NCBI GenBank assembly: GCA_016787045.1
Contig: JAEUVA010000002.1
Span: 1 to 64,000 of the forward strand
Direction: 5' to 3'
DNA length: 64,000 nt
From: Chitinophagales bacterium
GTDB lineage: Bacteria; Bacteroidota; Bacteroidia; Chitinophagales; LD1
In this document: positions 15,901 through 59,616 of the stretch, in pieces
Numbering within the stretch: position 1 is the stretch's first letter
Layout: each line of letters begins with the position of its first letter
Position numbers and translations under genes: made by a program
Notes under the pieces: generated by a model
Seen by the model: the letters and a program-made list of their open reading frames with translations, nothing else
What the model was told of the DNA's origin: nothing
Databases searched by the model: none

Positions 15901-16908
15901 ATCTGCGGTAGGGATAATATTTAGTGTGGTTGTAGTTTGTCCGGCCGGTATTACGATGGTGCCATTTAGGTTGTTGTAATCAACTCCGTTGGTAGCACTG
16001 CCGCCAATGGTGTAGTTTACTGTGGTGGGCACTGTTACGGGCTGTTGTAGTCTAAAGCGGATAACGCCATTTACACAACCTTCCATAGCATTAGAAGTAG
16101 CCGGGTCATTAGTTTCGGCATCATCTACAGATACAAAGTTTGAGGTCAAGCTGTTTTCTGCCAAAAACACACCGGAGTCATAAATGCCATCACCGGCATC
16201 GGCCACCATCAGGCGCATGTGGTAGGTTTGGCAGGGCTGAAGGTTTTTGCGCTTAGCAGTTAATACAGTTGTAAATCCATCATATTGTATGTAATAGTTA
16301 CTTGTATTTTGAGGGGCGGTGAAACCTGTACCGTTATTAACATAATACATAGAGTTAGCAGTAGAGTTTACGTTGTCTATGCTCACTGGTGTGGCAACTG
16401 TGCCCGGTACAATGGCTATATTTTGTTGTCCGGCAATACCGGGGCCGCTAATAAAAAACGCAAACGCATCGTTAAAACTGGCGTTTACCCACTCTAAGTA
16501 TTCTTCTGATCCAAAAACATATCTAAACTCCACACTATCGCTTTGCACTTGCATATCAAACTCCAATACACAAGCATCGTATGTGGTACTATTAGCTAGA
16601 GTATTTAGTTGTGCGTTGCCTGCTGCAAGGTTGTTAACGCCAGCTGACCCGCTGTTGTTTGGCCCGGGGATGCTGTTAACACTACCGCTAGTTAAAGCAA
16701 TGCCGGTGGTCATACCAAGGTTACAGTTTTGGCAGTTAAATGTTCCCGCACTGGTTCCTGGGCAATTCATTACAGCATTTGTAATGGTTACACCATTACC
16801 GGCAAGTATTTGGGCTAACTGCGTAGCGTTGTTTACAGGAACAGTAACAATCTGTGCGGATATGCTTATTGTGCATAGCAGCAGTAGAGAACCAAGAAGT
16901 TTATTCAT
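12961..16908 (-). CDS. SprB-like secreted adhesin with choice-of-anchor L domain and type B T9SS sorting tail
   Basis: A 1,315-residue secreted protein. A signal peptide (about residues 1-19, ending SISAQ) is followed by a choice-of-anchor L domain (~40-235; FDMQVQSD, FVFGSEEYLEWVN-like segment as YVFGSEEYLEWVN, NDAFAFFISGPG). A Calx-beta-like domain spans ~255-370. Two PKD/Ig-like modules (~370-525) have GPDTSVCAG and GPDVTICTG. About eight SprB-type repeats of ~75 residues follow (CFG...DGT...YxWSN...LxxGTYTVxVTDxxGCT). The C-terminal ~85 residues carry IPNAFSPNGDGNNDVF and VYNRWGEKIFDS, the gliding-associated type B sorting domain. Expected fate: export by T9SS to the cell surface; SprB proteins serve as adhesins in gliding. 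No gliding operon is nearby. A perfect palindrome lies 63 bases upstream of the start. Confidence 0.9.
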   Translation of the reverse strand: MNKLLGSLLLLCTISISAQIVTVPVNNATQLAQILAGNGVTITNAVMNCPGTSAGTFNCQNCNLGMTTGIALTSGSVNSIPGPNNSGSAGVNNLAAGNAQLNTLANSTTYDACVLEFDMQVQSDSVEFRYVFGSEEYLEWVNASFNDAFAFFISGPGIAGQQNIAIVPGTVATPVSIDNVNSTANSMYYVNNGTGFTAPQNTSNYYIQYDGFTTVLTAKRKNLQPCQTYHMRLMVADAGDGIYDSGVFLAENSLTSNFVSVDDAETNDPATSNAMEGCVNGVIRFRLQQPVTVPTTVNYTIGGSATNGVDYNNLNGTIVIPAGQTTTTLNIIPTADGIVEGNETLVIYLNSPCNNVPYDSAVLLIVDSLPFLVGPDTSVCAGQQVQLLGSLASTYAWTPSASLNATNIYNPLATPTATTVYRCNATIGACQRYDSAIVTIMPAPFSVNAGPDVTICTGAAPTLNAVVTGAPVNGNPFTYSWSPNTGLSSTIIPNPQANPTAQTNYVIQVSSGGCIASDTIAVLLGNLSISLSSTDQNCFGVNDGTVTLTLNTGTAPITYSWSNNATTQNISNLGGGTYTVNVSDALGCTATATATVAAAAPINFSTPSITHVICFGDNTGSISISANGGSGISGYVWSNSFTGNSPNQLTAGTYSVTASDTKGCTAETSITVNEPPQLSVMMNSTNISCFGATNGTGTVTVTGGTTPYGYAWSNSATTNSISNLGAGSYNFTVTDANSCTVSAGFTITAPSSPVSVSISTTAETCFAASNGTASATVSGGTPFYTYLWSNNATTLNISSLTGNTYSISVTDNNGCTASASGVVNAANAVTFSQPIISHVSCFGGNDGTMTITANGGAGSFNYVWNIGGTGTTASSLAAGIYTVTATDANNCPNSTSATVIEPPLLQATATSTNSTCFAADNGTATVIATGGTTPYSYAWNSGQSTPSINGLYPTNYLVTVTDSKSCTASAITSTSEPAELSAVLASTPVTCTYSTDGTISTTMINGFAPYTYDLMWSNTLQQTNGTGTFGNLTASTYTVKVTDVTNCTTSSTINILPPYPDEFTYTVDSTSCYGSEYNDGEVHIQVISTINQPYYFSIDNGGNQISPDFSSLSAGVHQLQLINKNGCVTDTIVFVPQPTQGIATALPLDSTIQLGEQLTLSGILSGYNTNAITGYDWQPSEGLSCTDCPNPVMQGYVTNTYYLTITYHNGCTATAATKIIVEGLPPVYIPNAFSPNGDGNNDVFMVYGESILNVMLTVYNRWGEKIFDSQNERFTGWDGTYKSVLQNPGVFTYVADITYLNSKKTQHKGTVTLLK

Positions 16909-42897: not shown

Positions 42898-43312
42898 CAT
42901 CTGGCCGGCAGTAGATGGCTTCTATGTTGTTGCCATAGCCACTTGGGCGAAATACAAAATATTTTTTATTGAGCGTAATAATGTCTGACTGTGTAGTTTG
43001 CCCGTAAATAGTGGTGTTTAATTGTTTTAGTTTAGTATTAAAGTTCCACGTGCCTAAGGTGGTGTCGTACCCTTTTATCACTCTGTATACACTGTCACGC
43101 ATAAACTGAAATTGGAATTCATTGATGAGCTGATACAAAATTTTACGTTGCTCTGTTGTGGTGAGGTTGGTGCTGCGTACGTTAAACTTTACATCATATA
43201 CCTTCCATTCAGAGCATAGTAGTTTTGTTGGGTTTGAACAACTGCTGATAAATACGAACAGAGTTATTGGAAAAACAAGAGTGTAATAGAAAACAGAGTT
43301 ACGTAACTTCAT
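42881..43312 (-). CDS. Small lipoprotein, lipocalin-like, unknown function
   Basis: A 143-residue protein. I chose the ATG at 43312 because it overlaps the upstream stop as ATGA; a Met three codons earlier lies inside that gene. The signal sequence ends in lipobox ISSC near residue 25. The mature part, CSEWKVYDVKF, then FQFMRDSVYRVIKGYDTTLGTWNF and a TLNKKYFVFRPSG strand, fits the small lipocalin-like lipoproteins of this phylum. It is translationally coupled to the helical-repeat gene. Confidence 0.65.
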   Translation of the reverse strand: MKLRNSVFYYTLVFPITLFVFISSCSNPTKLLCSEWKVYDVKFNVRSTNLTTTEQRKILYQLINEFQFQFMRDSVYRVIKGYDTTLGTWNFNTKLKQLNTTIYGQTTQSDIITLNKKYFVFRPSGYGNNIEAIYCRPDATGKK

Positions 43313-44799
43313 ATAGTCCATTCATTTAGTTTTTTAGTGAGCCACCATTTGTAAATATCTTCATCCAAAAAATCGGGCATGTTTGTTTCGTGCAGCAAAT
43401 AATGAATTTGTTTTTTGATTTCTCTTGTTTTGTTTTCTGCAACAGCAACGTTCAGTTTTTGAATGCCACTCGCAAAGTCTTGAAGCCCCACTGAATTAAA
43501 CTGATGTTTTAGTGCAAAGTTTTGAAAAACTTTTAGCAAGCGCTTAACCAATGTATGATTTTTTAGATCTAAGTGAACCAATACATTAGCTGCATGTGCG
43601 GCTATTACAATGTCTTTTCTGATGTTGTCAAAATTGTCATTGACCAATCGGTTAATTCTATGTAGCGCATCTTTGTGTTTGTCTAACCCAAAGTAACATA
43701 GCGCACTAAAATAAAGAATGGTTGCCTGGAGTTCTGCTCGGATGGGTTTATTGCCAATGTACTTCATTAAGGTCTGTTCGGTATTTACTGCTTCTTCAAA
43801 CTTGTATAGGCCACCAAGTACAATCAGTTTTTTTTCTAGCATTTGTGTAGCTATCTCAAACCGTTGACTATCACTAAGCGGAAGTTGCTCGTTTTGCAAT
43901 ACTTGGTTTATCTCTTCAATGTGTAATTCTGCTTCGGTGTAATTGAAAACGGAGATACATCTATTGGCTAATGAGTTGAGTGCTACAAAGTAATTGTAGG
44001 GGAGTGTCTTTATCTTTTCGGAATTGTTTTTAAATAATAGGCAAAGTTCAGTTGCGCTCTGATATGCTTTTTGTGCATCTCCAATTTTTAAGTAACATTT
44101 ATTTAGTATTTCATATCTGTGCATTTTTGCTTTGAAGGACAACGCCATTTTCTCATTTGCGAGCAACGGATGCTTTAGCAGCAGTTTCATTTCATTGGCA
44201 AAATCAGTTTTAGTATAGCCATCTATTTGCGTTTTGCTCATACTTATACTCTGTAAGTAACGGTACTCACAAAGGTTTTTATATCGCTCAATTTCTGCCA
44301 GCTCGGTTTGCAATTTATCATCATTAGTAGCTAAAATTTCTTCATACATACCTTTGCGCAGCATAATTTGGTATTGCATCTGTATGGCTTGAAGGTGCGC
44401 AAGTTGGGTTTCTTGCACACTCATTTTTTCTCGTGCTTTTTGCAGGTAACGATATGCCGTATCGTACATGTGTTTTTTTATGAGCATGTGCGCTTCAACC
44501 AATGTATTTAAGCGTTCAATATCGGGGTCGGTGTCGGTATGGTAGTTTCTCAACGACCTTACAATCATTTTTTGTAGGTATAGTTTGGTTACATTCAACT
44601 GCTGTAAAAATTTTTCACCGGCAAATTTTTTGCGAATCTGGTTTTCGTCATATTCTTCCATTTGATCTATACAGTCAAATAAACGGATGTAATTGCCCTC
44701 GCCCTTTTTACTGTTGATAGAGGCAAACTTTTTGAAATATCCTTTCTCATTCTTGTTAAGCGATTTGATGAGCAAAAACAGTTCGTTGGTTGGTTTCAT
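43309..44799 (-). CDS. Helical-repeat (TPR-like) protein, unknown function; paralogue of the gene at 63621
   Basis: A 496-residue, almost wholly helical protein without signal peptide or membrane segment. Pairs of ~34-residue helices such as DTAYRYLQKAREKMSVQETQLAHLQ and FEIATQMLEKKLIVLGGLYKFEEAVNTEQ suggest TPR-like solenoid structure, though no canonical TPR consensus is strict. The N-terminus ELFLLIKSLNKNEKGYFKK (residues 6-24) is nearly repeated in the partial gene at 63621. That conserved start could be a family signature. Likely a cytoplasmic scaffold or regulator, by fold only. It is followed by the coupled lipoprotein gene. Confidence 0.7.
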   Translation of the reverse strand: MKPTNELFLLIKSLNKNEKGYFKKFASINSKKGEGNYIRLFDCIDQMEEYDENQIRKKFAGEKFLQQLNVTKLYLQKMIVRSLRNYHTDTDPDIERLNTLVEAHMLIKKHMYDTAYRYLQKAREKMSVQETQLAHLQAIQMQYQIMLRKGMYEEILATNDDKLQTELAEIERYKNLCEYRYLQSISMSKTQIDGYTKTDFANEMKLLLKHPLLANEKMALSFKAKMHRYEILNKCYLKIGDAQKAYQSATELCLLFKNNSEKIKTLPYNYFVALNSLANRCISVFNYTEAELHIEEINQVLQNEQLPLSDSQRFEIATQMLEKKLIVLGGLYKFEEAVNTEQTLMKYIGNKPIRAELQATILYFSALCYFGLDKHKDALHRINRLVNDNFDNIRKDIVIAAHAANVLVHLDLKNHTLVKRLLKVFQNFALKHQFNSVGLQDFASGIQKLNVAVAENKTREIKKQIHYLLHETNMPDFLDEDIYKWWLTKKLNEWTI

Positions 44800-45063: not shown

Positions 45064-48000
45064 ATGAAGAAGATTCTTTTCTTTTTCCTCTCGGCTTTTG
45101 CCGTCTTCACTTCATTTGCGCAATCGGTAACCGTTACTCAACCCAATGGCGGAGAAACACTCTATGGCTGCCAAACCTACCAGATTCGCTGGACAGCCAC
45201 CGGTGTTTCAAACTTTTGGAACATTGAGTACTCGCTCAACAACGGCAGTACATGGACTACCGATGCTACCAATCTTTCTGTAACTCCAAGCGGTGGTTTT
45301 TATACCTACAATTGGACAGTACCGGCTATTACCTCGGCACAATGCTTAGTGCGTGTAACCGATTTCAGCGATAACCTAAAAACTGACCAAAGCAATGCTG
45401 TTTTTACTGTGGCACAAGCAATAGTAGTTACAGCACCAAATGGTGGAGAAACTTGGCAAGGGCTTACTAACCAAAGCATAACTTGGAATAGCCCAGGTAC
45501 TTCCGGCCCATTCAATATTGCGTATAGCACTAATAATGGTACTTCATGGACAAACATACAAACCAGCTACAGTGGTAACTCACTTACCTGGACGGTGCCT
45601 AACATTCCTTCCACACAAGCATTGATACGTGTTCAAAACACTTCTAACACTTGCCAAACAGACAATAGCAACGCTAATTTTACAATTTCGGCTGCCACAC
45701 CTGTAGTAACTGCTCCAAATGGCGGACAGGTTTGGACAATTGGCACTCTTCAAAACATTACATGGACTCCTTCTACCTACTACTCTAATGTAGATATAGA
45801 ATACAGTACCAACAACGGCAGTACCTGGACTACCATAGTAACCAACGATGCGAATGACGGCACCTATTCTTGGACTATTCCTAATGCGCCCACCTCGCAG
45901 GCATTGGTACGCGTGAGCAACAATGCGAACCCGGCAATTAACGATGTTAGCAACGCGGTCTTTAGCATAGTGCCCGGCTCTGTTACTATAACACAGCCCA
46001 ATGGCGGAGAAACTTTATATGGTTGCCAGAGTTACCAAATCCGTTGGACGGCTTCAGGTACTTCTAATTTTTGGAATATTGAATATTCGCTCAATAACGG
46101 TGCTACATGGACATCTGAAGCCACTAACTTATCTATAGCCCCAAGTGGCGGTATTTACATTTATGGTTGGACGGTGCCTACCGTTACCTCTAACCAAGTG
46201 TTAGTGCGCGTAACCGATTTTAATGATAATGCAAAAACGGATGTTAGTAATGCAGTATTTACCATAGCTGCTGCTATTACAGTTACTTTCCCTAATGGTG
46301 GTGAAAGTTTGCAGGGTCTTACTTCACAAACCATCACATGGAATAGCCCTGGTACTGTAGGGCCATTTCCAATTCAATACTCCGTAAACAATGGCACTAA
46401 CTGGACTACCATAGCCAGTAGCGTTAGTGGCAATACATATGTATGGACAGTGCCTAACAACCCAAGTGCCTTGGCACTGGTGCGTGTGTTAAATCAAAAT
46501 AATACGTGTCAGCAAGATCAGAGCAATGCTAATTTTACCATTACTCCAGCCACACCTATTATGACTTTACCAAATGGTGGAGAAAGTTTGGTAGTAGGCA
46601 CCAGCTACAATATTACTTGGAACTCTTCAACGTATTACTCTACTGTTAATATTGAATACAGCACTAATAACGGATCTACGTGGACACCAATTGCCACTGC
46701 TGACCCTAACGATGGCACTTACACATGGACTGTACCCAACACGCCTACCTCGCAAGCTATAGTGCGGGTGAGTAATAACGCCAACCCATCAGTAAATGAT
46801 GTGAGCAATGCAGTTTTCTCTATTGTGCCCGGCTCTGTAACCGTAACTGCACCTAATGGTGGAGAGTTGTATTACAGTTGCCGCACATATAGTATTACTT
46901 GGACAGCCGTAGGTACTTCAAATTTTTGGAATTTGGATTACTCGCTCAACAACGGTGCAACATGGATTTCTATTGCCACTAACCTTTCTGTATCACCAAG
47001 CGGTGGCACTTACACCTACAACTGGGTAGTGCCGTTTGTAGCTTCAACTCAAGCATTAGTTCGTGTTCGCGATTTTAACGACTTAGCCAAAACAGATGTG
47101 AGCAATGCTAATTTCACCATTCAATACCCTATAACTGTATTGACCAATAACGGTGGAAGTACATGGCAGGGCAATACCGTACAAAATATTACCTGGACCG
47201 CAGCCGGTTTAATTTCAGGTACACTTACGCTGGAATACTCTATCAACAACGGTACTACATGGACTACTATTTCTAGTGGAGAAACCAATGATGGCACCTA
47301 CAACTGGACAGTACCAAATACTCCAAGTACTCAGGCACTTATCCGTGTAAGAGATAATACAAATACCTGTCAAAACGATATTAGCGATGCGGTGTTTACT
47401 ATTTCTGAACCAACACCCATACTAACAGCCCCTAACGGTGGAGAAACATGGACAGTAAACAGCAGCCGCTCTATTACATGGAACAGTAATTCATTCTACT
47501 CTACCGTTAATTTAGACTACTCTATTAATAACGGCAGCACTTGGACAAACATTGCCACCGGAGTAAGCAACACCGGCAGCTATAGCTGGTTAATTCCATA
47601 TACTCCGTCTGCTCAGGCGTTGGTACGCGCCAGCAACAGTGCAAATACAGCCATCAACGATGTAAGCAATGCAGTGTTTACCATCTTAATGCCTACACCT
47701 GTATTAATTGCACCAAACGGTGGTGAAACTTGGAATGTAGCCACCACTCAAAACATTACTTGGAACTCTACCACATTTGTATCTAATGTGCGCATTGAGT
47801 ATAGCATAGATAATGGTGTAACTTACAACCTAATAACCAGCAGCACCCCTAACACTGGTTCTTATGCGTGGACCATTCCGGCCACACCTTCAACACAAGC
47901 ATTAGTACGAATCTTTAATACTTTAAGTGGCGCTACAACTGTTGGCGATACCAGCAATGGTGTATTTACAATAGCCAACCCGGCTATTGCTGTAACAAAT

Positions 48001-51000
48001 CCTACAGCCGCCACTCAATGGCAGGTTGGCCAGTCGGTTACTTTGCAGTGGACCAACGGTGCGGGTATTTCTAGCGTGCGCTTAGAGTATTCTACCAATG
48101 GTGGCACTACCTGGACATTGATTACAAGTTCTACGAGCACTACCAGTACTGGCGGCAGCTATGCTTGGACAGTACCAAACATACCCGGCACACAGAATGT
48201 GATAAAAGTAAGCAATACAGCAAACCTAAGTGTAAATGGCAGCAGTCCGTTCTTTACTGTATTGCCTCCAATGACAGTTACACTGCCAAATGGCGGAGAA
48301 GTACTCAACGGTTGCCAGACTTATGCTATACAACTTACCAAAACTCCGTTTTTAACCACGGGTTGGATACAAGTAGAATATACATTGGATGGTGGCGCTA
48401 ACTGGATTAATTTTTCTAACCCAAGCAATAACGGATTAACTACACAAACCGTAAACTGGAGTGTACCAAATTTACCAACTAACATTGCTTCTATACGCGC
48501 ATTTTTTAGCAATACACCTGCTGCGCGCGATAGCAGCGATGGGTATTTCACGATTAACCTCTCTAACGATATAACGGTGCTTACACCTGCTGCTCCGGTT
48601 AATTACACTCCGGGGCAAACGGTTACCATTTCTTGGAGCAACACGGCCAATGTAAGTGGTTTGTTTACGCTGGCTTGGAGAGATAGTTTGGGGAATTTTT
48701 CTACCATAGCCAGTAGTGTATCGGGTAATAATTATATATGGACTGTACCCAATACTCCGGGCAATGCAAACCGTTTCCGTGTGCGTGATAGTGGCAATAG
48801 TTGCCGCGAAGATTTGAGTGATACTACGTTCAGAATTTTGCCTAATTCTCCATTACTCACATATCCAAATGGGGGAGAAGTATTTGATGTAAACGATGCA
48901 GTAACCATTACATGGAACACAGCTACCTACTATACTCCACTGCGTTTGGAATATTCTACCAACAACGGATTTACCTGGAATTTGATTGTGAGCAGTACCT
49001 CAAACTCTGGTAGTTACTCGTGGACAGTTCCCAACGCTATTTCTACCCAATGTTTAGTTCGTGCACAAAGCACTACCAATTTATTTTTGGGAGATACGAG
49101 CAATGCGTTCTTCACCATTCGCAGGCCTGTACAACTTTTAACCCCACTGGCTACAGATACTTTTATAGCATGTAATAGTATACCATACAGCTTCCGGAAA
49201 GGGGCTAACGTTGGTACCTTGTATAGCGTTTTTGCTTCTACTGACAATGGTGCAAACTGGACGCAGGTAATTACTAATGCAGCTTTGGCTAATGGCGCTT
49301 ACACAGAAAGTAATTCGTTCACTGTACCGGTAGCTAATTATGTAGGGCCAATGAAAATTCGTGTGGTAACCAGTTTTGGAAGTGTGTATGCCGATACATT
49401 GGCGTATAACTTTTACATTAAACCATTTACCGGAATTAATGTGGTAACCCCTAATGGTGGGCAAACTTTTAATGCCGGTACACAGCAGTTAATTGGGTGG
49501 AATAACACACTAGGCCTTACTTCCTTTAACTTGCAGTACTCGCAAGATGGCGGTACCAACTGGAGCAATATTGCCAGCAGCGTGGGCTGTTGCAGCTACA
49601 CTTGGACAGTGCCAAACGTAAACAGTAACCAGGTATTGGTTCGTGTGCGCGATCAAAGCAATACTTGCCGAGCAGATAGTAGCAATGCGTTTTTCACTAT
49701 CATTCCTACGGCACCTATACTTATTTCACCTAACGGGGGAGAAGTGTTGAGTGTAGGTACTACTCCAAACATTACATGGAACAGTGCCACATTCTTTTCT
49801 GCTGTTCGTTTAGCATATTCAATTGATAACGGAGTGAACTGGATTTTGATAACCAGTTCTACACCAAATACCGGCAGCTATTCATGGACGGTGCCTAACG
49901 GAGTATCTACTCAATGTTTAGTACGCGCCAGCAATGTTAGTGATACTACTTGGTTTGATGTAAGCAATGCGGTGTTTACTATCAATCAACCTAAACCTGT
50001 GTTGATTTCTCCAAATGGTGGTGAGGTGTATGATATCAACACAGCATACAGCATCAACTGGAACTCATCTACTGTAAATAGTACAACTGTTCGCTTAGAG
50101 TACTCTATAAATTCCGGATTAACATGGGCAACGATAGTTTCGTCTACCACAAATAATGGCAGTTACTCATGGACTGCACCTGCCGTTCCTTCTAACCAGT
50201 GTTTGGTGCGTATTGTCAATCTGTCCTTCCCGGCACAGATGGATACCAGTGATAATGTGTTTACCATACTAACTCCGGTACAGGTATTATATCCTAACTT
50301 AACTTCAGATAGTTTAAAATCTTGTCAAACAGTATCGGTTACCTTCCGCAAAAACTTTAACAACAGTGGTACTTATTATTTCTACTATACTTTAGATAAT
50401 GGCGCTGTATGGAATTTTGTTAATTCTAACACATTTGCATCTACTACCTCCGGTAGTTTTAGCTGGACAGTACCACAAGTTGCCGGCTCTAACAATGCCC
50501 GTGTAAAAATTTCGCAGAGTAGCGACCCATACAATACATCTACTATATATCAGGATAGTAGCGATCAGGTATTTAGTATAAAAATGCCGGTAGCTGATAT
50601 TACGGTTACTGCACCCAACGGTGGGCAAGTGATTAACGCATTAACTAACTATACGATTACATGGACCAATGGTGCTACCGCCTCTGGCTTGTACCGCATA
50701 CGCTACCGCAACTCTGCCGGCAGCAATACTACCATTGCATCAAACATTACAGGAAATGCCTATATATGGTCTGTGCCAAACCTTGTAGGCGATTACAAGA
50801 TTTGGGTAGAAGACCAAAACAACACTTGTAAGTTTGATACCAGTGATGCTTTCTTTACTATCAACCCTGCTACACCGGTACTTACCGCACCAAATGGTGG
50901 AGAGTTTTGGGGTGCAGGTACATCCCAAAACATCACATGGACTACCAATACCATTTATAGCGGTGCTACCGTTCGCTTGGACTACTCATTGGATAGTGGC

Positions 51001-54000
51001 TTGACATGGAACTTGATTCAAACCGGCCTGAGCAATACCGGTAGCTACAACTGGACAGTGCCAAACGTGCAATCTAATTTAGCTTTAGTACGCATTAGCA
51101 CAGTAGGTACGGTTAACTTAACAGATGTAAGCAATGCTATATTTACTATTGGCTACCCTACACCGGTGCTCACCACTCCTAACAGTGGTACATTTGAGTA
51201 TGGCGAACCTATTTCTATTGGTTGGACTCCTTCATCGTTTAACTCAACAACGGTACGCTTAGAGTATTCGGTAGATAGCGGCACCACTTGGACATTAATT
51301 ACTACACAAACCACTTCAGCGGGATCATATGCGTGGAACGCTCCATACATCACCAGTACAGCTAAGTTTTTTATCCGGGTAATGAACACACTGAACCTGA
51401 GTGTTTGGGATGCCAATAACAACCCACTAAGCATTAACCGTCCGGTGCGCTTGAATGTAATGAATACTCCTACCACATTGACTGGATGCCAGACCTATAC
51501 ATTTAACGTAAGTCGCACACCGTACTATAGTAGCACACTTTATATTCAGTACTCTACAAATGGCGGTGCTACATGGACTACAGCTACAACCATTAGTAGT
51601 GGTGGAGCAGTAACCCAAAATGCCACATGGACGGTTCCGAACATTAGTTCTCCCAATACGATTTTTAATGCCTACTTCATAAATAATCCGAGTTACAACG
51701 ATACAGCAGATGCCAATGTGGTGATAAATCCGGATTATCCGATTGCGGTTACTGCTCCTAACTCTAATGTGCAGTTGATACCCGGCCAGTTGTTTACCAT
51801 TAGTTGGAGCAACACCGCCAACGTGAGTGGCTTGTATAGAATTCAATTATGGAATGGTGGCTCGCTTACCTCTACGCTCGCCACTAACATTACCGGCAAC
51901 AACTGGGTATGGACTGTGCCCAACTCTCCGGGTACTAACTGGAAGATAAGAGTATTGGATGATCAAGCTACTTGTAAGTTTGATAGCAGTGATGTTTCAT
52001 TTACCATAGTGCCAAAAACACCTTTGCTTACGGCACCAAACGGAGGGCAAACTTGGTGGGCCGGCCAAACGCAAGCCATTACTTGGGATAACACTACTTT
52101 CTACGATAACGTGCGCTTAGATTACTCTTTGGATAATGGCTTTACTTGGATAAACATCACAACAGCTACTGCAAACGATGGTTCTGAGTCATGGACACTA
52201 CCTTGGACAATTACACGATCCACACAAGCGTTGGTTCGTGTTAGCAATGCAGTTAATTTGAGCTTAAATGATGTGAGTGATGCAGTATTTACTATCAACC
52301 CGGCCATACGCATACTTACACCAAACGGTGGTTTGCAATTGGGGGCTTGTACCAATAGTTCTATTTCGTTTGAGCACTCACCGCAAATACAAACCAACGG
52401 TTGGACATTCCGTATTGAGTACTCGCTCAATAACGGTGTAAACTGGACAACGCTCATTACCAACCAATCGCCACAAACCAGTTCGCTCACCACATACAAT
52501 TACAGTATTCCTAACTCTTCATCAACACAATACGTGGCCAGAGTTTCGGTTACTTCTGTTTCGTCATATAATGACGTAAGTGATTCGCTCAATACCATCA
52601 AGCCGGCTGTAACTATTATTCAACCAAACTTTGGTGGTGTGTTGCAGGTGGGTAGCACTTACCAAATAAAGTGGAGCAGTGATGGTATATCTAACTTGTA
52701 CAATCTGTATTATTCCACCACAGGTTATGCCGGGCCGTACTCTACTATTCAATTGAACTACAACACTGCCACCAACCAGTATAACTGGACGGTGCCAAAC
52801 ACACCATCTAATAACTGCTACTTGGTGATACAAGATGCTACAGCCGCTTGTAAGTCAGATACCAGCAACCTTGCCTTTATTATTTCATCTACTTCATCGC
52901 AAATTACGGTAACAGCACCAAACGGTGGCGATTCGCTTAGCGGATGCCAGAGCTACAACATTACCTGGACAGATGCCGGTGCTAACGGGCCATATAATGT
53001 GGCTTATACCACAGATGGTGCGGCCTCTTACAATACTATTGCTACTAATGTGAGCGGTACCAGCTACAATTGGGTTGTGCCTAACAACATCAACAGCAGT
53101 AATGTGCTGGTGCGTGTACAAAGTGCAGGTACACCTACCGTGTTTGACTTGAGCAATGCATTGTTTACTATTCAGAATGGTAAAGTAATCGCATCGCCAG
53201 ATACTACCATTTGTCAAGGCCAAAGTGCACAATTGATGGCAACCGGTGGAAACGGAATTTACAGCTGGACTCCATCTGCCACACTCAGCAACCCTAACAT
53301 TCCGAACCCCGTAGCTACGCCAAGTGTTACTACTACATATACCGCTACTTCTAACAACAGCGGATGTATATTGAGCGATACTGCTCGTGTAACTGTGATA
53401 CCCGGTGGGGTAGTAGCTCCTACGGTAAGTATTGCGGTTTCGCCATCTACGGGTATTTGCAGCGGTACATCAGTTACGTTTAGCGCTACTGCTACCAATG
53501 GTGGCGGCTCACCAATCTACCAATGGAAAAAGAATGGTACTAACGTAGGTACAAACAGTTCTACTTACACCACCAATACCATTGCCAACAACGACCAGAT
53601 TACCTGTGTGATGACCAGCAGTGCGGCTTGTGTTAGCCCGCTTTCAGCTACTTCTAACGCCATTACCATGACTGTGTTCCCAACAGTAGCGCCTTCTGTT
53701 TCTATTTCAGCTTCTTCTACAAACGTTTGTACAGGAGCAAACATCACCTTTACGGCTACGGCTACGAATGGTGGCGGCTCACCTGTTTATCAATGGAAGT
53801 TGAATGGAAATAACGTAGGTACAAACAGTGCCACATACAGTAACAACGCGCTTGCTAACAACGATATAGTGGTTTGCCAGTTAACCAGCAGCGCTAACTG
53901 TGCCACACCGGTTACTGTTACTTCTAACTCTTTAGTAATAACGGTAAATAGTTTTGTAACTCCTTCAATTACTATTAGCGTGCCAAGTACAACAGTATGC

Positions 54001-57000
54001 TCAGGTCAAAGTGTAGTGTTTAGTTCATCTATCACCAACGGTGGTGCCGCTCCGGTTTATCAGTGGAAGAAAAACGGTAGCAATGTGGGTACAGGTTTAA
54101 GCACTTATACCACCAGCACATTGGCTAATAACGATGTGATAACTTGTGAACTTACTTCAAATGCAGCTTGCCCAAGTCCGGCAACTGTTACCAGCAATTC
54201 ACTGACCATGAGTGTAGTGAGCAGCGCAGTGCCATCGGTAAGTGTAAGTGCTAGTGCAACCAATGTTTGTGCGGGAACTACAGTGTTATTTACAGCCACT
54301 CCAACCAATGGCGGCTCTACCCCAAGCTACCAATGGAAAGTAAACGGCAACAACACCGGCACCAACTCCGCTACATATTCTACCAATGCGTTAGCGAATA
54401 ATGACGTGGTAACTGTAGTGATGACTTCAAACTTTGCTTGTGTATCGCCTACTTCGGCTACTTCAACAGGTATTACCATGACGGTGAACCCAACCAGTGC
54501 TCCAACTGTATCTATTGCTGCATTACCAAGTGGTGCGGTTTGTACCGGTACTTCGGTTACGTTTACGGCTACGGCCTCTAACGCAGGAGGCACCCCAAGC
54601 TACCAATGGAAAGTGAATGGTAGTAACGTAGGCGGTAATTCATCTACGTACAACTCTTCATCTCTGGTAAGTAGCGATGTGGTAACCTGTGTGGTAACCA
54701 GCAGTAGCACTTGTGCTTCGCCAAACACTGCTACCTCTAATGCTGTTACCATGACGGTGAATAGTAATGTTGTACCAACTATCAGCATTAACACAAGCAA
54801 TACCAACGTTTGTGCTGGAGCTAACGTGGTGTTTACATCTACCATTACCAATGGTGGTACCACACCTGTTTACCAGTGGAGAAGAAACGGTACTGTAGTG
54901 GGCACCAACTCTGCATCGTACAGTTCAACTACTTTGTCTAACAATGATGTGATTACTTGCCGCTTGACATCTAATGCAGCATGTGTCACACCGGATAGCG
55001 CTATCTCAAACGCTGTTACAATGACTATTAATCCTGTAGTGGCTCCTTCAGTAACCATTGCTACTACAACTACCACAGTTTGTGCAGGCACCTTAGTCAA
55101 CTTTACGGCAACCCCCACTAATGGCGGCAGCAACCCTGCCTATCAGTGGAAAGTGAATGGCAGCAACGTGGGGACTAACAGTAACACCTTTAGCTCATCT
55201 ACATTAGCCAATAACGATGCAGTGAGTGTAGTGCTTACCAGTAATGCTACCTGCGCTTCGCCTGTTTCGGCTACCTCTAACACGCTGAACATGACGGTGA
55301 ACCCGAATGTAACACCTACCGTAAGCATCAACGCATCGGCTACGAGCATTTGTACCGGAGGTAGTGTTACTTTCACTGCATCTGCTACCAATGGTGGCGC
55401 ATCGCCAGTTTACCAATGGAGAGTTAACGGCTCACCTAGCGGAACCAACAGCAATACATTCACTACTACTACCTTAGCCAATAGCGATGTGGTAACTTGT
55501 GTGTTGACAAGCAATGCAACTTGTGCCACTACCACTACTGCTAATTCTAACGCCATTACTATTACCGTAAATTCGGCAGTTACTCCTTCGGTTACTATTG
55601 CCACAGGTAGCAGCACTATCTGCTCGGGTACATCAGTTACGTTTACCGCCACACCAACCAATGGTGGCGGAACTCCTGCTTACCAATGGAGAGTGAATGG
55701 CAATAACGTAGGTACAAACTCTGCCTCTTACACTACCAATACATTAACCAATAGCGATGTGGTAAGTGCAGTGCTTACCAGCAATGCCAACTGTGCCTCA
55801 CCGGCATCGGTTACATCTAACAGTATAACCATGACAGTAACGCCTAGTGTTACCCCAAGTGTGAGCATTAGCGCATCATCTACTAATATTTGCGCAGGTA
55901 CATCGGTTACCTTTACAGCTACACCTACTAATGGCGGCACTACACCAAGCTACCAATGGAAAGTAAACGGTAGCAATGCAGGTACTAACTCTGCTACGTT
56001 CTCTTCTTCTACACTAAATAACAATGATTTGATAAGTGTAGTGATGACCAGCAACGCCTCCTGTGCCTCACCTGTTTCTGTAACCTCTAATGCCATCGCT
56101 ATTACCGTGAACTCTCTAAGTGCACCTACCATCAGCATTAGCACAGGTGCTAATACAGTATGTGCCGGAGCAAACGTTACGTTTAATGCCACGGTTACTA
56201 ATGCAGGTTCATCACCGGTTTACCAATGGAAAGTGAACGGCAACAACGCAGGCACTAATGCGGCATCTTTCTCTACTACTGCTTTAGTGAGTGGAGATGT
56301 GGTAAGTTGCCAGTTTACATCAACCAGCCCATGTGCGGGTACTACTACTGTAAGTTCAAATAACGTTACCATGACGGTGAACCCAAGTGTGGCTCCGGCA
56401 GTTAGCATCAGCGCATCGGCAACTAACATTTGTGCCGGTGCATCAGTTACGTTTACTGCCACGCCTACTAATGGTGGTAGCACTCCGGCTTATCAATGGA
56501 AAGTGAACGGAAACAATGCGGGCACTAATAGCGCTACGTTTACCACTTCTACACTAGTAAATAATGATGTTGTAACTGTAGTGTTGACCTCAAACGCTAC
56601 TTGTGCAGTACCTGCTACTGCCACTTCAAACAGTGTAACTATTACAGTGGGTTCTAATGCCACACCTACCATTAATATCAGTACCGCTTCAACAAGTATT
56701 TGTGCAGGAGCAAACGTTACGTTCAATGCAACTATTACCAACGGTGGAAGCAACCCTGCATATCAGTGGAAAGTGAATGGCAATAATGCCGGCACTAATG
56801 CTCCATCATTCACCTCAAATACGTTACCGAATGGTGCGGTGGTAAGTTGTGTGCTAACCTCTAACGCAAGTTGCGTAACACAAAGTACAGCCAACTCTAA
56901 CAACATTACCCTTACGGTATCTCCGGTAGTAACTCCTGCTGTAAGTATCAGCGCCAGCAGCAGCACAATTTGTGCAGGTGTTAGCGTAACGTTTACGGCC

Positions 57001-59559
57001 TCACCAACCAATGGTGGCAGTACACCTACTTATCAATGGAAAGTGAATGGCAACAATGCGGGTACCAATAGCGCCACTTTCACTACGGTTTCATTAGCCA
57101 ATGGCGATTTAGTAACCTGTGAGTTGACAAGCAGTGCAACCTGCCCAAGTGTGCCTACGGCTACTTCAAACACTGTTACTATGACTGTGAATAGTGCGGT
57201 AACACCTTTAGTTTCTGTAAGCGCAAGTGTAAATAACATTTGTGCCGGTACATCGGTTACTTTTACAGCCACTCCATCAAATGGTGGCACTACACCTTCT
57301 TATCAGTGGAAAGTAAATGGCAATAACACCGGTACCAATAGCAATACTTTTGTTTCTACCACTCTGGCAAATAACGATGTTGTAACCGTTGTTATGACTA
57401 GTAACGCAGCGTGTGCTGCTCCGGTTACTGCCACATCTAATGCGGTAACCATGGTAGTAACTCCAAATGTGGCACCAACTATAACAATAACCGGAAACGG
57501 TGCTGTTTGTGCGGGTGCTGTGGTTAACTATAGCGCTACCATTACCAATGGCGGAGCTGCTCCAGTTTACCAATGGAAAGTAAACGGAAACAATGCAGGA
57601 ACAAACAACGCTGCTTTCTCTACTTCATCATTAACCAATGGTGATGTGGTAACGTGTGTGCTAACCTCTTCGGCTAATTGTGCTTCACCGGTTTCAGCTA
57701 CATCTAATCAAATTACTCAAGTGGTCAATGCCAATATTACTCCTTCTGTTAGCATCAGCACGCCAAGTACTACAATATGCAGCGGTGCCTCAGTTACGTT
57801 TACAGCAACAGCTACCAACGGAGGTAATGCTCCTGCATATCAGTGGAAAGTAAATGGCAACAATGCCGGTACTAACTCAGCTACATTTACATCTTCAGCA
57901 CTTGCAAGTGGCGATGTAGTGAGCGTAGTGATGACCAGCAATGCCGCTTGCTTAACTACAGCTACTGCGTTATCTAACACAATAACCATTACTGTAGTAA
58001 CTGCCGCTGCGCCTACCATCAATATTTCTGCTAGTGCTACAGCAATCTGTGCGGGTACCTCTGTAACCTTTACGGCTACTTCTACCAATGGTGGGTCTGC
58101 TCCGGTTTACCAATGGAAAGTGAACGGGTTTAATGTGGGAACCAACAGCAGCTCATTTGCTTCAAGCACTTTAAGTAACAACGATGTGGTTACTTGTGTG
58201 CTTACTTCAAATTCAAGTTGTGCTATACCAAACACAGCTACTTCAAATAGTGTTACCATAACGGTGAACAGCACTACAGCTCCTACCGTGAGCATTAGCG
58301 CATCACAAAACCCGGTTTGTGTGGGTGGCTCGGTAACCTTTACCGCCACTGCGGCTAACGCAGGTAATGCCCCGGTATATCAATGGAAAGTGAATGGTGC
58401 AAATGCCGGAAGCAACAGCAGTACTTATTCAACTTCTACTCTAAGCGATGGTGACGTAGTACTTTGCGAAGTAACTTCTAACGCGCAATGTACATCTGGC
58501 ACAACTGCTACATCCAATTCGGTAACTATACAAGTAGGTACTGCGGGAGCAGCGGGAGTGAGCATTACTGCATCGGCAACTGTAGTTTGTACAGGTACAG
58601 TGGTTACGTTTACCGCTACACCTGCTAATGGCGGCACGACCCCTGCTTACCAGTGGAAAGTGAATGGTGTAAATGCCGGAACCAACTCACCGGTGTACAA
58701 CAGTACAACGTTGAGTAACAACGATGTGGTAGTTTGTGAAATGACCAGCAGCAATACCTGCGCTTCGCCACAAACCGCTACATCTAACAGTATAACTATA
58801 GCTGTATATGCTCAGGTTACGCCTACTGTAACCATTACGCCTAACCCTTCTGCTAATGTATGCGCTGGTACCACGGTAGTATTTACCGCTACCGCCACCA
58901 ACGCGGGCACCTCTCCGGTATATCAGTGGAAACTGAATGGTGCAAACGTAGGCGTAGGTGGAGCAATATACTCTAACAGCGGCCTTGCCGATAATGATGT
59001 GGTTACTGTACAGTTAACCAGCAATGCTACTTGTGTAACCACACCAACTGTATTATCACCATCGGTAGTTATGAATGTGAACCCCATACCAGCCAAGCCA
59101 ACAGTTTCGGTGAATGGCAATGTGCTCACCAGCAGCGCAGTGAGTGGTAACCAGTGGTTGCAAACCGGTAGCCCCATTACCGGAGCCATCAACCAAAGCT
59201 ATACCGCTGTTACTTCCGGTTGGTATAGCGTACAAGTGAATGATGTTAACGGTTGTAGCAATCGCTCAGACTCTGTACAGGTAACAGTTACCGGAATAGA
59301 AGATGTAGTAATTAGCGAAGTAGTGAACGTGTATCCTAATCCATTTACCGATGAGTTGATGGTGCAAATCAGCACTGATGTGAAATCGGTAGAAGGATGG
59401 ACACTGACTATTACCGATATTGCCGGAAGATTGATTAACTCAACAAAAATTCATGAAATGACCACCGGACTAGATATGAAAGAACAAGCTGCCGGAGTGT
59501 ATTTTGTACGGATATCTAACAACCATCAACACCATGTGGTGCGAGTGGTGAAGCAATAA
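45064..59559 (+). CDS. Giant (4,831-residue) repetitive surface protein with type A T9SS sorting tail
   Basis: A single uninterrupted frame of 14.5 kb. The signal peptide is residues 1-20 (ending FTSFAQ). Residues 21-~2705 hold 28 modules of ~95 residues with the core PNGGETW...NITWNS...VxIEYSxNNGxTWT...YxWTVPNxPSxQALVRVSN...SNAxFTI, similar to the Kre9/KNH-type Ig-like group. One PKD-like module follows (SPDTTICQG; ~2706-2780). Then come 21 Ig-like modules averaging exactly 90 residues, with VCAGxxVTFTATxTNGG, YQWKVNG, SNxxC and ATSNxxTxTV. After a short beta module the chain ends in VYPNPFTDELMVQIS...TDIAGRLI...GVYFVRI, the type A Por_Secre_tail. Expected: export by T9SS and attachment to the surface, as an adhesin or matrix protein. 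A terminator follows. Confidence 0.93.
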   Translation: MKKILFFFLSAFAVFTSFAQSVTVTQPNGGETLYGCQTYQIRWTATGVSNFWNIEYSLNNGSTWTTDATNLSVTPSGGFYTYNWTVPAITSAQCLVRVTDFSDNLKTDQSNAVFTVAQAIVVTAPNGGETWQGLTNQSITWNSPGTSGPFNIAYSTNNGTSWTNIQTSYSGNSLTWTVPNIPSTQALIRVQNTSNTCQTDNSNANFTISAATPVVTAPNGGQVWTIGTLQNITWTPSTYYSNVDIEYSTNNGSTWTTIVTNDANDGTYSWTIPNAPTSQALVRVSNNANPAINDVSNAVFSIVPGSVTITQPNGGETLYGCQSYQIRWTASGTSNFWNIEYSLNNGATWTSEATNLSIAPSGGIYIYGWTVPTVTSNQVLVRVTDFNDNAKTDVSNAVFTIAAAITVTFPNGGESLQGLTSQTITWNSPGTVGPFPIQYSVNNGTNWTTIASSVSGNTYVWTVPNNPSALALVRVLNQNNTCQQDQSNANFTITPATPIMTLPNGGESLVVGTSYNITWNSSTYYSTVNIEYSTNNGSTWTPIATADPNDGTYTWTVPNTPTSQAIVRVSNNANPSVNDVSNAVFSIVPGSVTVTAPNGGELYYSCRTYSITWTAVGTSNFWNLDYSLNNGATWISIATNLSVSPSGGTYTYNWVVPFVASTQALVRVRDFNDLAKTDVSNANFTIQYPITVLTNNGGSTWQGNTVQNITWTAAGLISGTLTLEYSINNGTTWTTISSGETNDGTYNWTVPNTPSTQALIRVRDNTNTCQNDISDAVFTISEPTPILTAPNGGETWTVNSSRSITWNSNSFYSTVNLDYSINNGSTWTNIATGVSNTGSYSWLIPYTPSAQALVRASNSANTAINDVSNAVFTILMPTPVLIAPNGGETWNVATTQNITWNSTTFVSNVRIEYSIDNGVTYNLITSSTPNTGSYAWTIPATPSTQALVRIFNTLSGATTVGDTSNGVFTIANPAIAVTNPTAATQWQVGQSVTLQWTNGAGISSVRLEYSTNGGTTWTLITSSTSTTSTGGSYAWTVPNIPGTQNVIKVSNTANLSVNGSSPFFTVLPPMTVTLPNGGEVLNGCQTYAIQLTKTPFLTTGWIQVEYTLDGGANWINFSNPSNNGLTTQTVNWSVPNLPTNIASIRAFFSNTPAARDSSDGYFTINLSNDITVLTPAAPVNYTPGQTVTISWSNTANVSGLFTLAWRDSLGNFSTIASSVSGNNYIWTVPNTPGNANRFRVRDSGNSCREDLSDTTFRILPNSPLLTYPNGGEVFDVNDAVTITWNTATYYTPLRLEYSTNNGFTWNLIVSSTSNSGSYSWTVPNAISTQCLVRAQSTTNLFLGDTSNAFFTIRRPVQLLTPLATDTFIACNSIPYSFRKGANVGTLYSVFASTDNGANWTQVITNAALANGAYTESNSFTVPVANYVGPMKIRVVTSFGSVYADTLAYNFYIKPFTGINVVTPNGGQTFNAGTQQLIGWNNTLGLTSFNLQYSQDGGTNWSNIASSVGCCSYTWTVPNVNSNQVLVRVRDQSNTCRADSSNAFFTIIPTAPILISPNGGEVLSVGTTPNITWNSATFFSAVRLAYSIDNGVNWILITSSTPNTGSYSWTVPNGVSTQCLVRASNVSDTTWFDVSNAVFTINQPKPVLISPNGGEVYDINTAYSINWNSSTVNSTTVRLEYSINSGLTWATIVSSTTNNGSYSWTAPAVPSNQCLVRIVNLSFPAQMDTSDNVFTILTPVQVLYPNLTSDSLKSCQTVSVTFRKNFNNSGTYYFYYTLDNGAVWNFVNSNTFASTTSGSFSWTVPQVAGSNNARVKISQSSDPYNTSTIYQDSSDQVFSIKMPVADITVTAPNGGQVINALTNYTITWTNGATASGLYRIRYRNSAGSNTTIASNITGNAYIWSVPNLVGDYKIWVEDQNNTCKFDTSDAFFTINPATPVLTAPNGGEFWGAGTSQNITWTTNTIYSGATVRLDYSLDSGLTWNLIQTGLSNTGSYNWTVPNVQSNLALVRISTVGTVNLTDVSNAIFTIGYPTPVLTTPNSGTFEYGEPISIGWTPSSFNSTTVRLEYSVDSGTTWTLITTQTTSAGSYAWNAPYITSTAKFFIRVMNTLNLSVWDANNNPLSINRPVRLNVMNTPTTLTGCQTYTFNVSRTPYYSSTLYIQYSTNGGATWTTATTISSGGAVTQNATWTVPNISSPNTIFNAYFINNPSYNDTADANVVINPDYPIAVTAPNSNVQLIPGQLFTISWSNTANVSGLYRIQLWNGGSLTSTLATNITGNNWVWTVPNSPGTNWKIRVLDDQATCKFDSSDVSFTIVPKTPLLTAPNGGQTWWAGQTQAITWDNTTFYDNVRLDYSLDNGFTWINITTATANDGSESWTLPWTITRSTQALVRVSNAVNLSLNDVSDAVFTINPAIRILTPNGGLQLGACTNSSISFEHSPQIQTNGWTFRIEYSLNNGVNWTTLITNQSPQTSSLTTYNYSIPNSSSTQYVARVSVTSVSSYNDVSDSLNTIKPAVTIIQPNFGGVLQVGSTYQIKWSSDGISNLYNLYYSTTGYAGPYSTIQLNYNTATNQYNWTVPNTPSNNCYLVIQDATAACKSDTSNLAFIISSTSSQITVTAPNGGDSLSGCQSYNITWTDAGANGPYNVAYTTDGAASYNTIATNVSGTSYNWVVPNNINSSNVLVRVQSAGTPTVFDLSNALFTIQNGKVIASPDTTICQGQSAQLMATGGNGIYSWTPSATLSNPNIPNPVATPSVTTTYTATSNNSGCILSDTARVTVIPGGVVAPTVSIAVSPSTGICSGTSVTFSATATNGGGSPIYQWKKNGTNVGTNSSTYTTNTIANNDQITCVMTSSAACVSPLSATSNAITMTVFPTVAPSVSISASSTNVCTGANITFTATATNGGGSPVYQWKLNGNNVGTNSATYSNNALANNDIVVCQLTSSANCATPVTVTSNSLVITVNSFVTPSITISVPSTTVCSGQSVVFSSSITNGGAAPVYQWKKNGSNVGTGLSTYTTSTLANNDVITCELTSNAACPSPATVTSNSLTMSVVSSAVPSVSVSASATNVCAGTTVLFTATPTNGGSTPSYQWKVNGNNTGTNSATYSTNALANNDVVTVVMTSNFACVSPTSATSTGITMTVNPTSAPTVSIAALPSGAVCTGTSVTFTATASNAGGTPSYQWKVNGSNVGGNSSTYNSSSLVSSDVVTCVVTSSSTCASPNTATSNAVTMTVNSNVVPTISINTSNTNVCAGANVVFTSTITNGGTTPVYQWRRNGTVVGTNSASYSSTTLSNNDVITCRLTSNAACVTPDSAISNAVTMTINPVVAPSVTIATTTTTVCAGTLVNFTATPTNGGSNPAYQWKVNGSNVGTNSNTFSSSTLANNDAVSVVLTSNATCASPVSATSNTLNMTVNPNVTPTVSINASATSICTGGSVTFTASATNGGASPVYQWRVNGSPSGTNSNTFTTTTLANSDVVTCVLTSNATCATTTTANSNAITITVNSAVTPSVTIATGSSTICSGTSVTFTATPTNGGGTPAYQWRVNGNNVGTNSASYTTNTLTNSDVVSAVLTSNANCASPASVTSNSITMTVTPSVTPSVSISASSTNICAGTSVTFTATPTNGGTTPSYQWKVNGSNAGTNSATFSSSTLNNNDLISVVMTSNASCASPVSVTSNAIAITVNSLSAPTISISTGANTVCAGANVTFNATVTNAGSSPVYQWKVNGNNAGTNAASFSTTALVSGDVVSCQFTSTSPCAGTTTVSSNNVTMTVNPSVAPAVSISASATNICAGASVTFTATPTNGGSTPAYQWKVNGNNAGTNSATFTTSTLVNNDVVTVVLTSNATCAVPATATSNSVTITVGSNATPTINISTASTSICAGANVTFNATITNGGSNPAYQWKVNGNNAGTNAPSFTSNTLPNGAVVSCVLTSNASCVTQSTANSNNITLTVSPVVTPAVSISASSSTICAGVSVTFTASPTNGGSTPTYQWKVNGNNAGTNSATFTTVSLANGDLVTCELTSSATCPSVPTATSNTVTMTVNSAVTPLVSVSASVNNICAGTSVTFTATPSNGGTTPSYQWKVNGNNTGTNSNTFVSTTLANNDVVTVVMTSNAACAAPVTATSNAVTMVVTPNVAPTITITGNGAVCAGAVVNYSATITNGGAAPVYQWKVNGNNAGTNNAAFSTSSLTNGDVVTCVLTSSANCASPVSATSNQITQVVNANITPSVSISTPSTTICSGASVTFTATATNGGNAPAYQWKVNGNNAGTNSATFTSSALASGDVVSVVMTSNAACLTTATALSNTITITVVTAAAPTINISASATAICAGTSVTFTATSTNGGSAPVYQWKVNGFNVGTNSSSFASSTLSNNDVVTCVLTSNSSCAIPNTATSNSVTITVNSTTAPTVSISASQNPVCVGGSVTFTATAANAGNAPVYQWKVNGANAGSNSSTYSTSTLSDGDVVLCEVTSNAQCTSGTTATSNSVTIQVGTAGAAGVSITASATVVCTGTVVTFTATPANGGTTPAYQWKVNGVNAGTNSPVYNSTTLSNNDVVVCEMTSSNTCASPQTATSNSITIAVYAQVTPTVTITPNPSANVCAGTTVVFTATATNAGTSPVYQWKLNGANVGVGGAIYSNSGLADNDVVTVQLTSNATCVTTPTVLSPSVVMNVNPIPAKPTVSVNGNVLTSSAVSGNQWLQTGSPITGAINQSYTAVTSGWYSVQVNDVNGCSNRSDSVQVTVTGIEDVVISEVVNVYPNPFTDELMVQISTDVKSVEGWTLTITDIAGRLINSTKIHEMTTGLDMKEQAAGVYFVRISNNHQHHVVRVVKQ
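45124..53178 (+). repeat. Array 1: 28 PNGGE/YSxNNGxTW modules in an A-B-C super-repeat
   Basis: Each module is ~285 bases. By their cysteines they fall into three kinds. A has one Cys near the front (GCQTY, SCRTY, SCQTV). B has one Cys near the end (NTCQTD, NTCKFD, ATCKFD). C has neither, or only a QCLVR Cys. The order is A-B-C, A-B-C, A-B-C-C-C, A-B-C, A-B-C-C, A-B-C-C, A-B-C, A-B, A. Codon choices differ between copies, so the array is old. Confidence 0.8.
53413..59082 (+). repeat. Array 2: 21 Ig-like YQWK modules
   Basis: 5,670 bases for 21 copies gives exactly 270 bases (90 residues) on average. All copies keep the VC(A/S/T)G cysteine and the SN/S-x-x-C cysteine, the NGG, YQW(K/R) and NG motifs. 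Copies are near-identical in protein in places but differ at many third codon positions. Confidence 0.88.
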
Positions 59560-59584: not shown

Positions 59585-59616
59585 AAGCCGCTCAAGCAAT
59601 TGGGCGGCTTTTTTAT
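59585..59616 (+). terminator. Rho-independent terminator after the giant gene
   Basis: AAGCCGCTC (59585-59593) pairs with GGGCGGCTT (59602-59610; one T-G pair) around an eight-base loop, followed by TTTTTTATTT. It lies 26 bases past the stop and could also serve the convergent operon. Confidence 0.75.

Follow-up and report, generated by a model that had tools for sequence, protein, structure and literature searches.

The window analysed here, a stretch of 64,000 nucleotides from a Chitinophagales bacterium, contains on its forward strand a gene for a giant modular protein (Table 1). The modules are arranged in the order 28 A, one seam module S (residues 2705-2782), 21 B, one pre-tail module T (residues 4671-4755) and a T9SS type A tail, giving 51 Ig/Fn3-like modules in a single chain. 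All 82 cysteines of the protein lie inside A, S, B, T or tail modules. The sequence-only reading had proposed a single 4,831-residue frame with 28 and 21 modules, a type A tail and a terminator of its own. The frame proved to be open over all 4,831 codons, and profile HMMs built from the protein itself detected exactly 28 A modules (residues 23-2704) and 21 B modules (residues 2783-4670), with weak cross-matches between the two families (<5 bits). The tail exceeded the cut-offs of both PF18962 (41.9 bits versus 27) and TIGR04183 (38.4 versus 23). The terminator-like hairpin 3' of the gene had the longest stem found in the scan (11 pairs, 6 of them G-C), which returned 10 sites versus 13.4 expected in shuffles. 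The proposal of a secreted fibre made of two module families also stood, except that it had overlooked the pre-tail Ig-like module.

Table 1. Positions of the gene, its parts and neighbouring features in the window
Feature	Position	Strand	Remarks
Divergent neighbour	43309..44799	-	496 aa; distant BT_2802_fam match
Whole gene	45064..59559	+	Single ATG-started open frame, 4831 aa
Signal-peptide-like N-terminal segment	45064..45123	+	MKKILFFFLSAFAVFTSFAQ; by-eye reading of sequence
A unit 1 (A1-A3)	45130..45969	+	a-b-c, N-cap; predicted staple Cys36(A1)-Cys197(A2)
A unit 2 (A4-A6)	45985..46824	+	Modules 69-79% identical to unit 1
A unit 3 (A7-A11)	46840..48261	+	
A unit 4 (A12-A14)	48274..49119	+	
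A unit 5 (A15-A18)	49135..50268	+	
A unit 6 (A19-A22)	50284..51438	+	
A unit 7 (A23-A25)	51463..52299	+	
A unit 8 (A26-A28)	52312..53175	+	C-cap; best match to positions 19-21 of 21-module arrays
Seam module S	53176..53409	+	Ig_7-like; Cys2717 and Cys2768
B array	53410..59073	+	21 Ig-like YQWK/R modules of ~90 aa, each with an A-B-turn and an F-G-turn cysteine
Pre-tail module T	59074..59328	+	Ig-like; F-G-turn cysteine only (Cys4731)
T9SS type A C-terminal sorting domain and stop codon	59329..59559	+	
Intrinsic-terminator-like hairpin	59585..59610	+	Followed by a T run

The length of 4,831 residues had been considered rare in Bacteroidota. It is large, yet neither unique nor exceptional: the same genome encodes a T9SS ORF of 6,031 residues (contig C38, locus L018:1243-19335, minus strand), A-module ORFs of 4,638-5,432 residues occur in other genomes of the phylum, and SprB has 6,497 residues. 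A single weak B-type match was found in the 6,031-residue ORF. A split or collapsed frame had been named as what would undo the proposal. An assembly artefact or collapsed repeat is extremely improbable, since the longest exact direct repeat is 26 bp in the ORF (17 bp within the A array) and no pair of modules exceeds 71% DNA identity; a single frame also runs through 14.5 kb, although orthologue contigs in other genomes do end inside arrays.

The similarity of A modules to one another was maximal at a spacing of three (z 3.7) and four (z 2.1) modules, not one, and three module types (a, b, and c) were distinguished, with an early cysteine in a and a late cysteine in b. Units 1-3 are mutually closest, their corresponding modules being 53-79% identical. 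B modules showed a weaker preference, for partners two (z 3.0) or five (z 2.4) modules away. In Pfam, the A modules matched Reelin_subrepeat-B most strongly, which we ascribe to an Asp-box motif, present in its loose form in 22 of 28 A modules (mean of 0.12 in shuffled modules) and in its strict form in 4 of 28. Kre9_KNH, the domain that had been suggested for a check, was rejected as the identity of the A modules because it scored 18.5 bits, under the gathering cut-off of 24.6. Fibrillar adhesins are described as a stalk plus an adhesive domain (PMC8286594). No adhesive domain was recognised among the seven Pfam families matched, and an adhesive module could lack a Pfam model.

The genome encodes the SprA translocon (TIGR04189, 2,447 bits versus a cut-off of 200) and has 150 matched T9SS tails. 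On the strength of its tail and of the encoded SprA, the gene product is a predicted T9SS type A cargo. VKOR, a possible disulfide generator, was considered as a source of disulfides and discarded because its gene is absent from the genome. In a tblastn comparison of seven window neighbours, a homologue close to an orthologue was located for the divergent neighbour alone, and in a single other genus, where the 496-residue homologue (L033:3348-4838, minus strand, 27% identity) is likewise divergent and upstream; no homologue of it was found beside other A-array genes. Elsewhere in the window, positions 12961-16908 (minus strand) encode a 1,315-residue protein with seven SprB-repeat stretches, Calx-beta and a CHU_C type IX signal, and an ORF at positions 2-2623 (plus strand), which extends beyond the first position of the window, has collagen-like GXX repeats (PF01391).

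Cysteines at the module joints

We examined the positions of the cysteines in AF2 models. In the model of A1-A3 (pLDDT 94.9), Cys14 falls after strand 10-12 and before strand 16-21, and Cys175 after strand 161-170 and before strand 177-179; the model of A28-S-B1-B2 (pLDDT 92.6) has its cysteines in the same turns. The early cysteine thus occupies the A-B turn and the late cysteine the F-G turn of the Ig/Fn3 sandwich. In the usual topology of this fold, the two turns are at opposite ends of a module, so that two such cysteines can meet only across a joint.

The joints were then counted in 36 non-redundant arrays out of 64 A arrays, with six further arrays without a late cysteine excluded. At 191 of 196 joints with an early cysteine, the next module carried a top one (F-G or B-C turn), and at 191 of 199 joints with a top cysteine, the preceding module carried an early one. 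When the module order was shuffled, these proportions were 0.45 and 0.51 (maxima of 0.53 and 0.59). None of 508 A modules carried both an early and a late cysteine. This joint-wise pairing, together with the separation of the two cysteines in A modules, points to disulfides between modules, and the models suggest that these would cross the joints. The rule had 13 exceptions. At seven of them (four in L110, the others in L082, L088, and L104), the cysteine was a few columns off; five fell where the joint is truncated, split or gapped (L035, L090, L112 twice, and L120); and one, the joint from module 20 to module 21 of L089, remained. In one lineage, an extra B-C-turn cysteine would also link c to the next a. 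B-C-turn cysteines followed an early cysteine in 70 of 77 cases, with relatives retained in this count.

In the window protein, manual pairing gave 31 joints consistent with the rule and left no early or late cysteine unpaired. The A array accounts for eight of these joints and the B array for 20, and the others are A28-S, S-B1, and B21-T. Every B module has both cysteines, and those of the seam module are placed to bond A28 before it and B1 after it. At the ends of this run, A28 has an early cysteine only and T a late cysteine only. The latter pattern was shared by all 10 T modules that end the chain after a B module, a count that includes the window protein and from which redundancy was removed for identical N-termini only. 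In L108 and L110, the final matched module of the pre-tail type carries both cysteines, and the L110 ORF runs off its locus. The rule leaves twenty cysteines of the window protein unpaired. Thirteen of them are in strand F of B modules and five in strand F of A modules (A1, A14, A17, A18, and A27), and the other two are a CC pair in A16. A strand F cysteine, likewise without a partner under the joint rule, is present in 437 of 863 A modules of the redundant set. Our literature search brought up no report of disulfides linking the modules of T9SS or PKD/Ig arrays, and the original description of GhpA may cover them.

Relatives and the A-seam-B junction

We next turned to the distribution of the modules. 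Elsewhere in the same genome, A modules were found in two ORFs only, a metalloprotease-like protein of 1,787 residues with one A module, five B modules and a T9SS tail (L017:7279-12606, plus strand) and a 1,242-residue ORF with a single weak match. A protein at L043 has the same module order as the metalloprotease-like protein. The first-unit profile matched 80 loci in named genomes, mostly of Bacteroidota; the carriers include MAGs labelled Chitinophagales, Flavobacteriales, Bacteroidales, Cytophagales, Saprospiraceae, and others, as well as Aureispira, and at its weak end the profile matched modules in other phyla too. A-type triplets were present in 38 of 392 sampled genomes of the phylum (E<=1e-45). 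A Planctomycetota MAG contig (L121) encodes 38-40 A-type modules in one open frame, with no rule cysteine. Two distinct N-termini of A-array proteins occur in a single genome (L052 and L053 of G007), so that some species would have two A-array genes.

The sequence-only reading had placed a join of two ancestral proteins at the seam and suggested a search for homologues that keep both arrays in this order. Such homologues exist. The A28-seam-B junction was detected in 4 of 30 genomes of the family (E<=1e-30) and, when 396 genomes were sampled across the order, in nine, from three families (E<=1e-35; one of the nine matches covers query residues 1-165 only, and its protein has no B module). The seam region is 42-61% identical in nine other loci that were aligned, one of which is cut off in B2. 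One other genus has 15 A modules, S and at least 14 B modules, with the contig ending inside the B array, and a third genus has at least five A modules (contig end inside the array), S, 23 B modules, T and the tail. In the genus of Aureispira sp. CCB-QB1, the order is A21-S-B2 followed by other domains, in genomes of two and three contigs. We infer the genus because G364 and the Aureispira record share a 1,813-residue ORF at the same place in the contig.

Because other families of the order share the A-seam-B layout, the junction is old. It is thus very unlikely that two proteins were joined at ~53,180 in this lineage and left the seam module as a scar. Such a join would accord with the occurrence of B arrays without an A array and of A arrays with other C-terminal parts, but the junction is found in other families, and its seam is 42-61% conserved in the nine other loci aligned. 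Moreover, the seam module, which had been called PKD-like, is not specially so: on its own it matched Ig_7 (PF19081) at 25.9 bits, just under the cut-off of 27.3, and Ig_7 is also the best match of a single B module. By family, S belongs to the B side. In other lineages, A arrays precede cohesin- or dockerin-like domains, PKD_6 arrays or Ig_7 arrays, and the A array and the C-terminal stalk have thus been exchanged in evolution. In L097 and L101, seven-unit arrays are followed by cohesin-like domains (in L097 also dockerin-like) and then by a T9SS tail. An old modular layout replaces the account of two proteins joined at a seam; what survives of the two-part origin is the exchange of array and stalk, not a join peculiar to this protein.

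Number and turnover of A-array units

Among 27 intact arrays, 16 had 21 modules, four had 24 and two had 23. Seven units, some of them with four modules, were present in 22 of the 27, and four units in four arrays; the window protein has eight units by the cysteine parse. In the non-redundant set (60% identity of the first unit; n = 15), seven units were found in 10 arrays, four in 4, and eight in 1, that of the window. These counts leave aside arrays that stop at a contig or locus boundary, four frame-split arrays (L088, L090, L100, and L112) and L119, whose array of 10 modules is intact but lacks the cysteines. L095, which has only 22 residues after its last module, was included. L104 has three detected pairs only, and in L116 further modules may be concealed in three gaps of ~165 residues. 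In the four frame-split loci, the A array is divided over two ORFs in different frames, by frameshift or assembly error; reading over both frames gives seven units for L100 and four for L088 and L090. A part of the four-unit arrays could be assembly collapses.

The modules at the ends of the array keep their place across orders. The best match was at the same position in 178, 150, 107, and 175 of 240 comparisons for positions 1, 2, 19, and 20, respectively, whereas internal modules mostly lose position (1,363 of 5,040 same-place best matches overall). One-to-one orthology of all A modules was rejected on this ground, as position is retained by the caps alone. For the internal units of 12 non-redundant 21-module arrays, identity was 0.695 within a protein; between proteins it was 0.433 when the positions were equal and 0.431 when they differed. 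Because equal and unequal positions are alike and identity within a protein is higher, internal units turn over. Close array pairs still hold position (0.76 versus 0.54 at 77% overall identity), and turnover is therefore slow, though nearly complete at about 55% identity.

In the window protein, modules 26-28 best matched positions 19-21, the C-cap, and modules 1, 4, and 7 all best matched position 1, the N-cap; modules 12, 15, 19, and 23 did so too, with lower identity. The match of modules 1, 4, and 7 to the N-cap makes it most likely that the eighth unit arose by copying unit 1. The array shares with the seven-unit A-array family the N- and C-caps that match by position across orders, and it has eight a-b-c units instead of seven. 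The window protein is thus a variant, not a typical member, of that family. With its a-b-c units and conserved end caps, the A array defines a family of Bacteroidota.

The number of units bears on a plainer explanation, an ordinary T9SS repeat adhesin of variable length, in which module number drifts and the cysteine pattern, inherited from an ancestral a-b pair, is unbonded. We consider this rather unlikely. Unit number does vary (four, seven or eight), and many of the A-type triplets found across the phylum are in ORFs of very different length. However, the units turn over and yet 10 of 15 arrays keep seven, and the cysteine rule survives insertions, the extra module of 24-module arrays carrying a B-C-turn and an early cysteine. 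The usually constant number of units suggests that length matters. A bolder reading, which we offer tentatively and at less than even odds, is that these proteins form a family of surface filaments found throughout Bacteroidota, the distal half of which is a counted device of seven disulfide-stapled a-b-c units between two caps, fixed in number while the units are replaced, and that such stapling is a general means of stiffening the Ig fibres of the phylum, grappling hooks included. A number held fixed despite replaced units would point to selection on length or to a closed sevenfold arrangement.

A proposed contact fibre and the known giant fibres

GhpA, grappling hook protein A of Aureispira (PDB 9FLP, 9FLS, 9FLW, and others), was reportedly described by Lien et al. 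(2024, Science 386:eadp0614). A Foldseek search of the PDB with the seam model gave GhpA fragments as the six best matches (best E 4.6e-13), ahead of the next unrelated chain (E 1.8e-9). The seam profile matched GhpA (E 1.7e-5) and an animal Dscam chain (E 1.3e-5) about equally. Both searches thus found an Ig-like stalk resembling GhpA. With VIA-align, both models matched generic tandem Ig and Fn3 chains, and GhpA was not among the best 50, although it may match farther down. The C-terminal part of the A-array protein from the Aureispira genus matched GhpA by phmmer (E 2.2e-30, with a large composition bias). Given the VIA-align result and the equal match to Dscam, the link to GhpA is carried mainly by Foldseek and the Aureispira relative. 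The A profile had no GhpA match at E<=0.01 in the PDB set, which includes the 5,898-residue GhpA, and no homology to GhpA was found in the N-terminal, distal part.

GhpA is described as a monomer of 5,898 residues that assembles into a heptamer, is secreted by the T9SS and attaches to prey flagella (PMC13319060, PMC11205867). Like the window protein, it is a giant T9SS-secreted chain of Ig-like modules, and the GhpA stretch matched by the Aureispira-genus protein has ICEG-type and GC-type cysteines at similar positions. It differs in that no A-type module was found in it, and the heptamer and hook are described for GhpA. That the window protein is itself a true grappling-hook protein, a GhpA-like multimer forming a hooked filament that catches other cells, seems improbable to us. 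The structural matches of the seam model, the T9SS tail and translocon, the comparable size (4,831 versus 5,898 residues) and the A-array protein in the Aureispira genus would fit it, but the A array does not match GhpA at E<=0.01, and that Aureispira-genus protein (3,273 residues) is separate from the 5,898-residue GhpA.

Other giant proteins offer partial parallels. SprB, a T9SS-exported protein, belongs to a class set apart by SprB repeats and a CHU_C tail; in a Pfam scan of the window protein, neither the SprB repeat (PF13573) nor the CHU_C type B tail (PF13585) was matched. Like the window protein, SprB, the gliding adhesin of Flavobacterium johnsoniae (6,497 residues), is described as a giant filamentous surface protein of Bacteroidetes (PMC9870892). 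The GhpA-like GhlA of Litorilinea aerophila (6,596 residues, 49 DUF11 domains, about 180 nm; PMC13319060) is described as a giant filament of the beads-on-a-string type with a similar number of modules; it differs in coming from Chloroflexota and in its DUF11 modules, for which the Pfam scan gave no match in the window protein. The giant adhesin of Mobiluncus mulieris has, according to its description, 7,651 residues and 51 Ig-like domains, the latter as in the window protein, and is stiffened by covalent cross-links (PMC10619420). Those cross-links (ester, isopeptide, disulfide, and thioester) are described as intradomain, whereas the cysteines of the window protein point across joints.

We propose, with a probability of roughly 60%, that the gene encodes a T9SS-exported, disulfide-stapled contact fibre of ~190 nm that is kin to grappling hooks in its stalk and not in its head. 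The protein would be exported by Sec, pass the SprA translocon and be recognised by its C-terminal domain. It would then stand on the cell surface as one continuous chain, 51 Ig/Fn3-like modules long, in which the A array is the end most distant from the tail. Staples would connect the A-B-turn cysteine at the bottom of one module to the F-G-turn cysteine at the top of the next, with eight a-b staples in the A array followed by an unbroken run through A28, S, all B modules and T. The outcome would be a stiff stalk, for which the ratio described for GhlA predicts ~190 nm from 51 modules. The A array, with usually seven (here eight) a-b-c units and caps, is the conserved part and probably has a distal contact function, and the B array would be a lineage-specific extension of the stalk. 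In this proposal, the anatomy, the family, the cysteine rule, the tail and the translocon stand on observation, and the disulfide bonds, the orientation, the length and the function are predictions. As the A array has no GhpA match, we infer a long contact or adhesion fibre that is comparable to GhpA in stalk and export route and different in its distal part, not a GhpA.

What is surprising in the window protein is its counted and apparently stapled array. If the proposal is correct, a stiff single-chain fibre of >100 nm would be built in Bacteroidota by a simple sequence code that can be read from the genome, a bottom cysteine followed by a top cysteine. A constant count in a repeat whose units turn over would likewise be a rare natural case of selection on repeat number, and would open the length that such fibres require to direct test.
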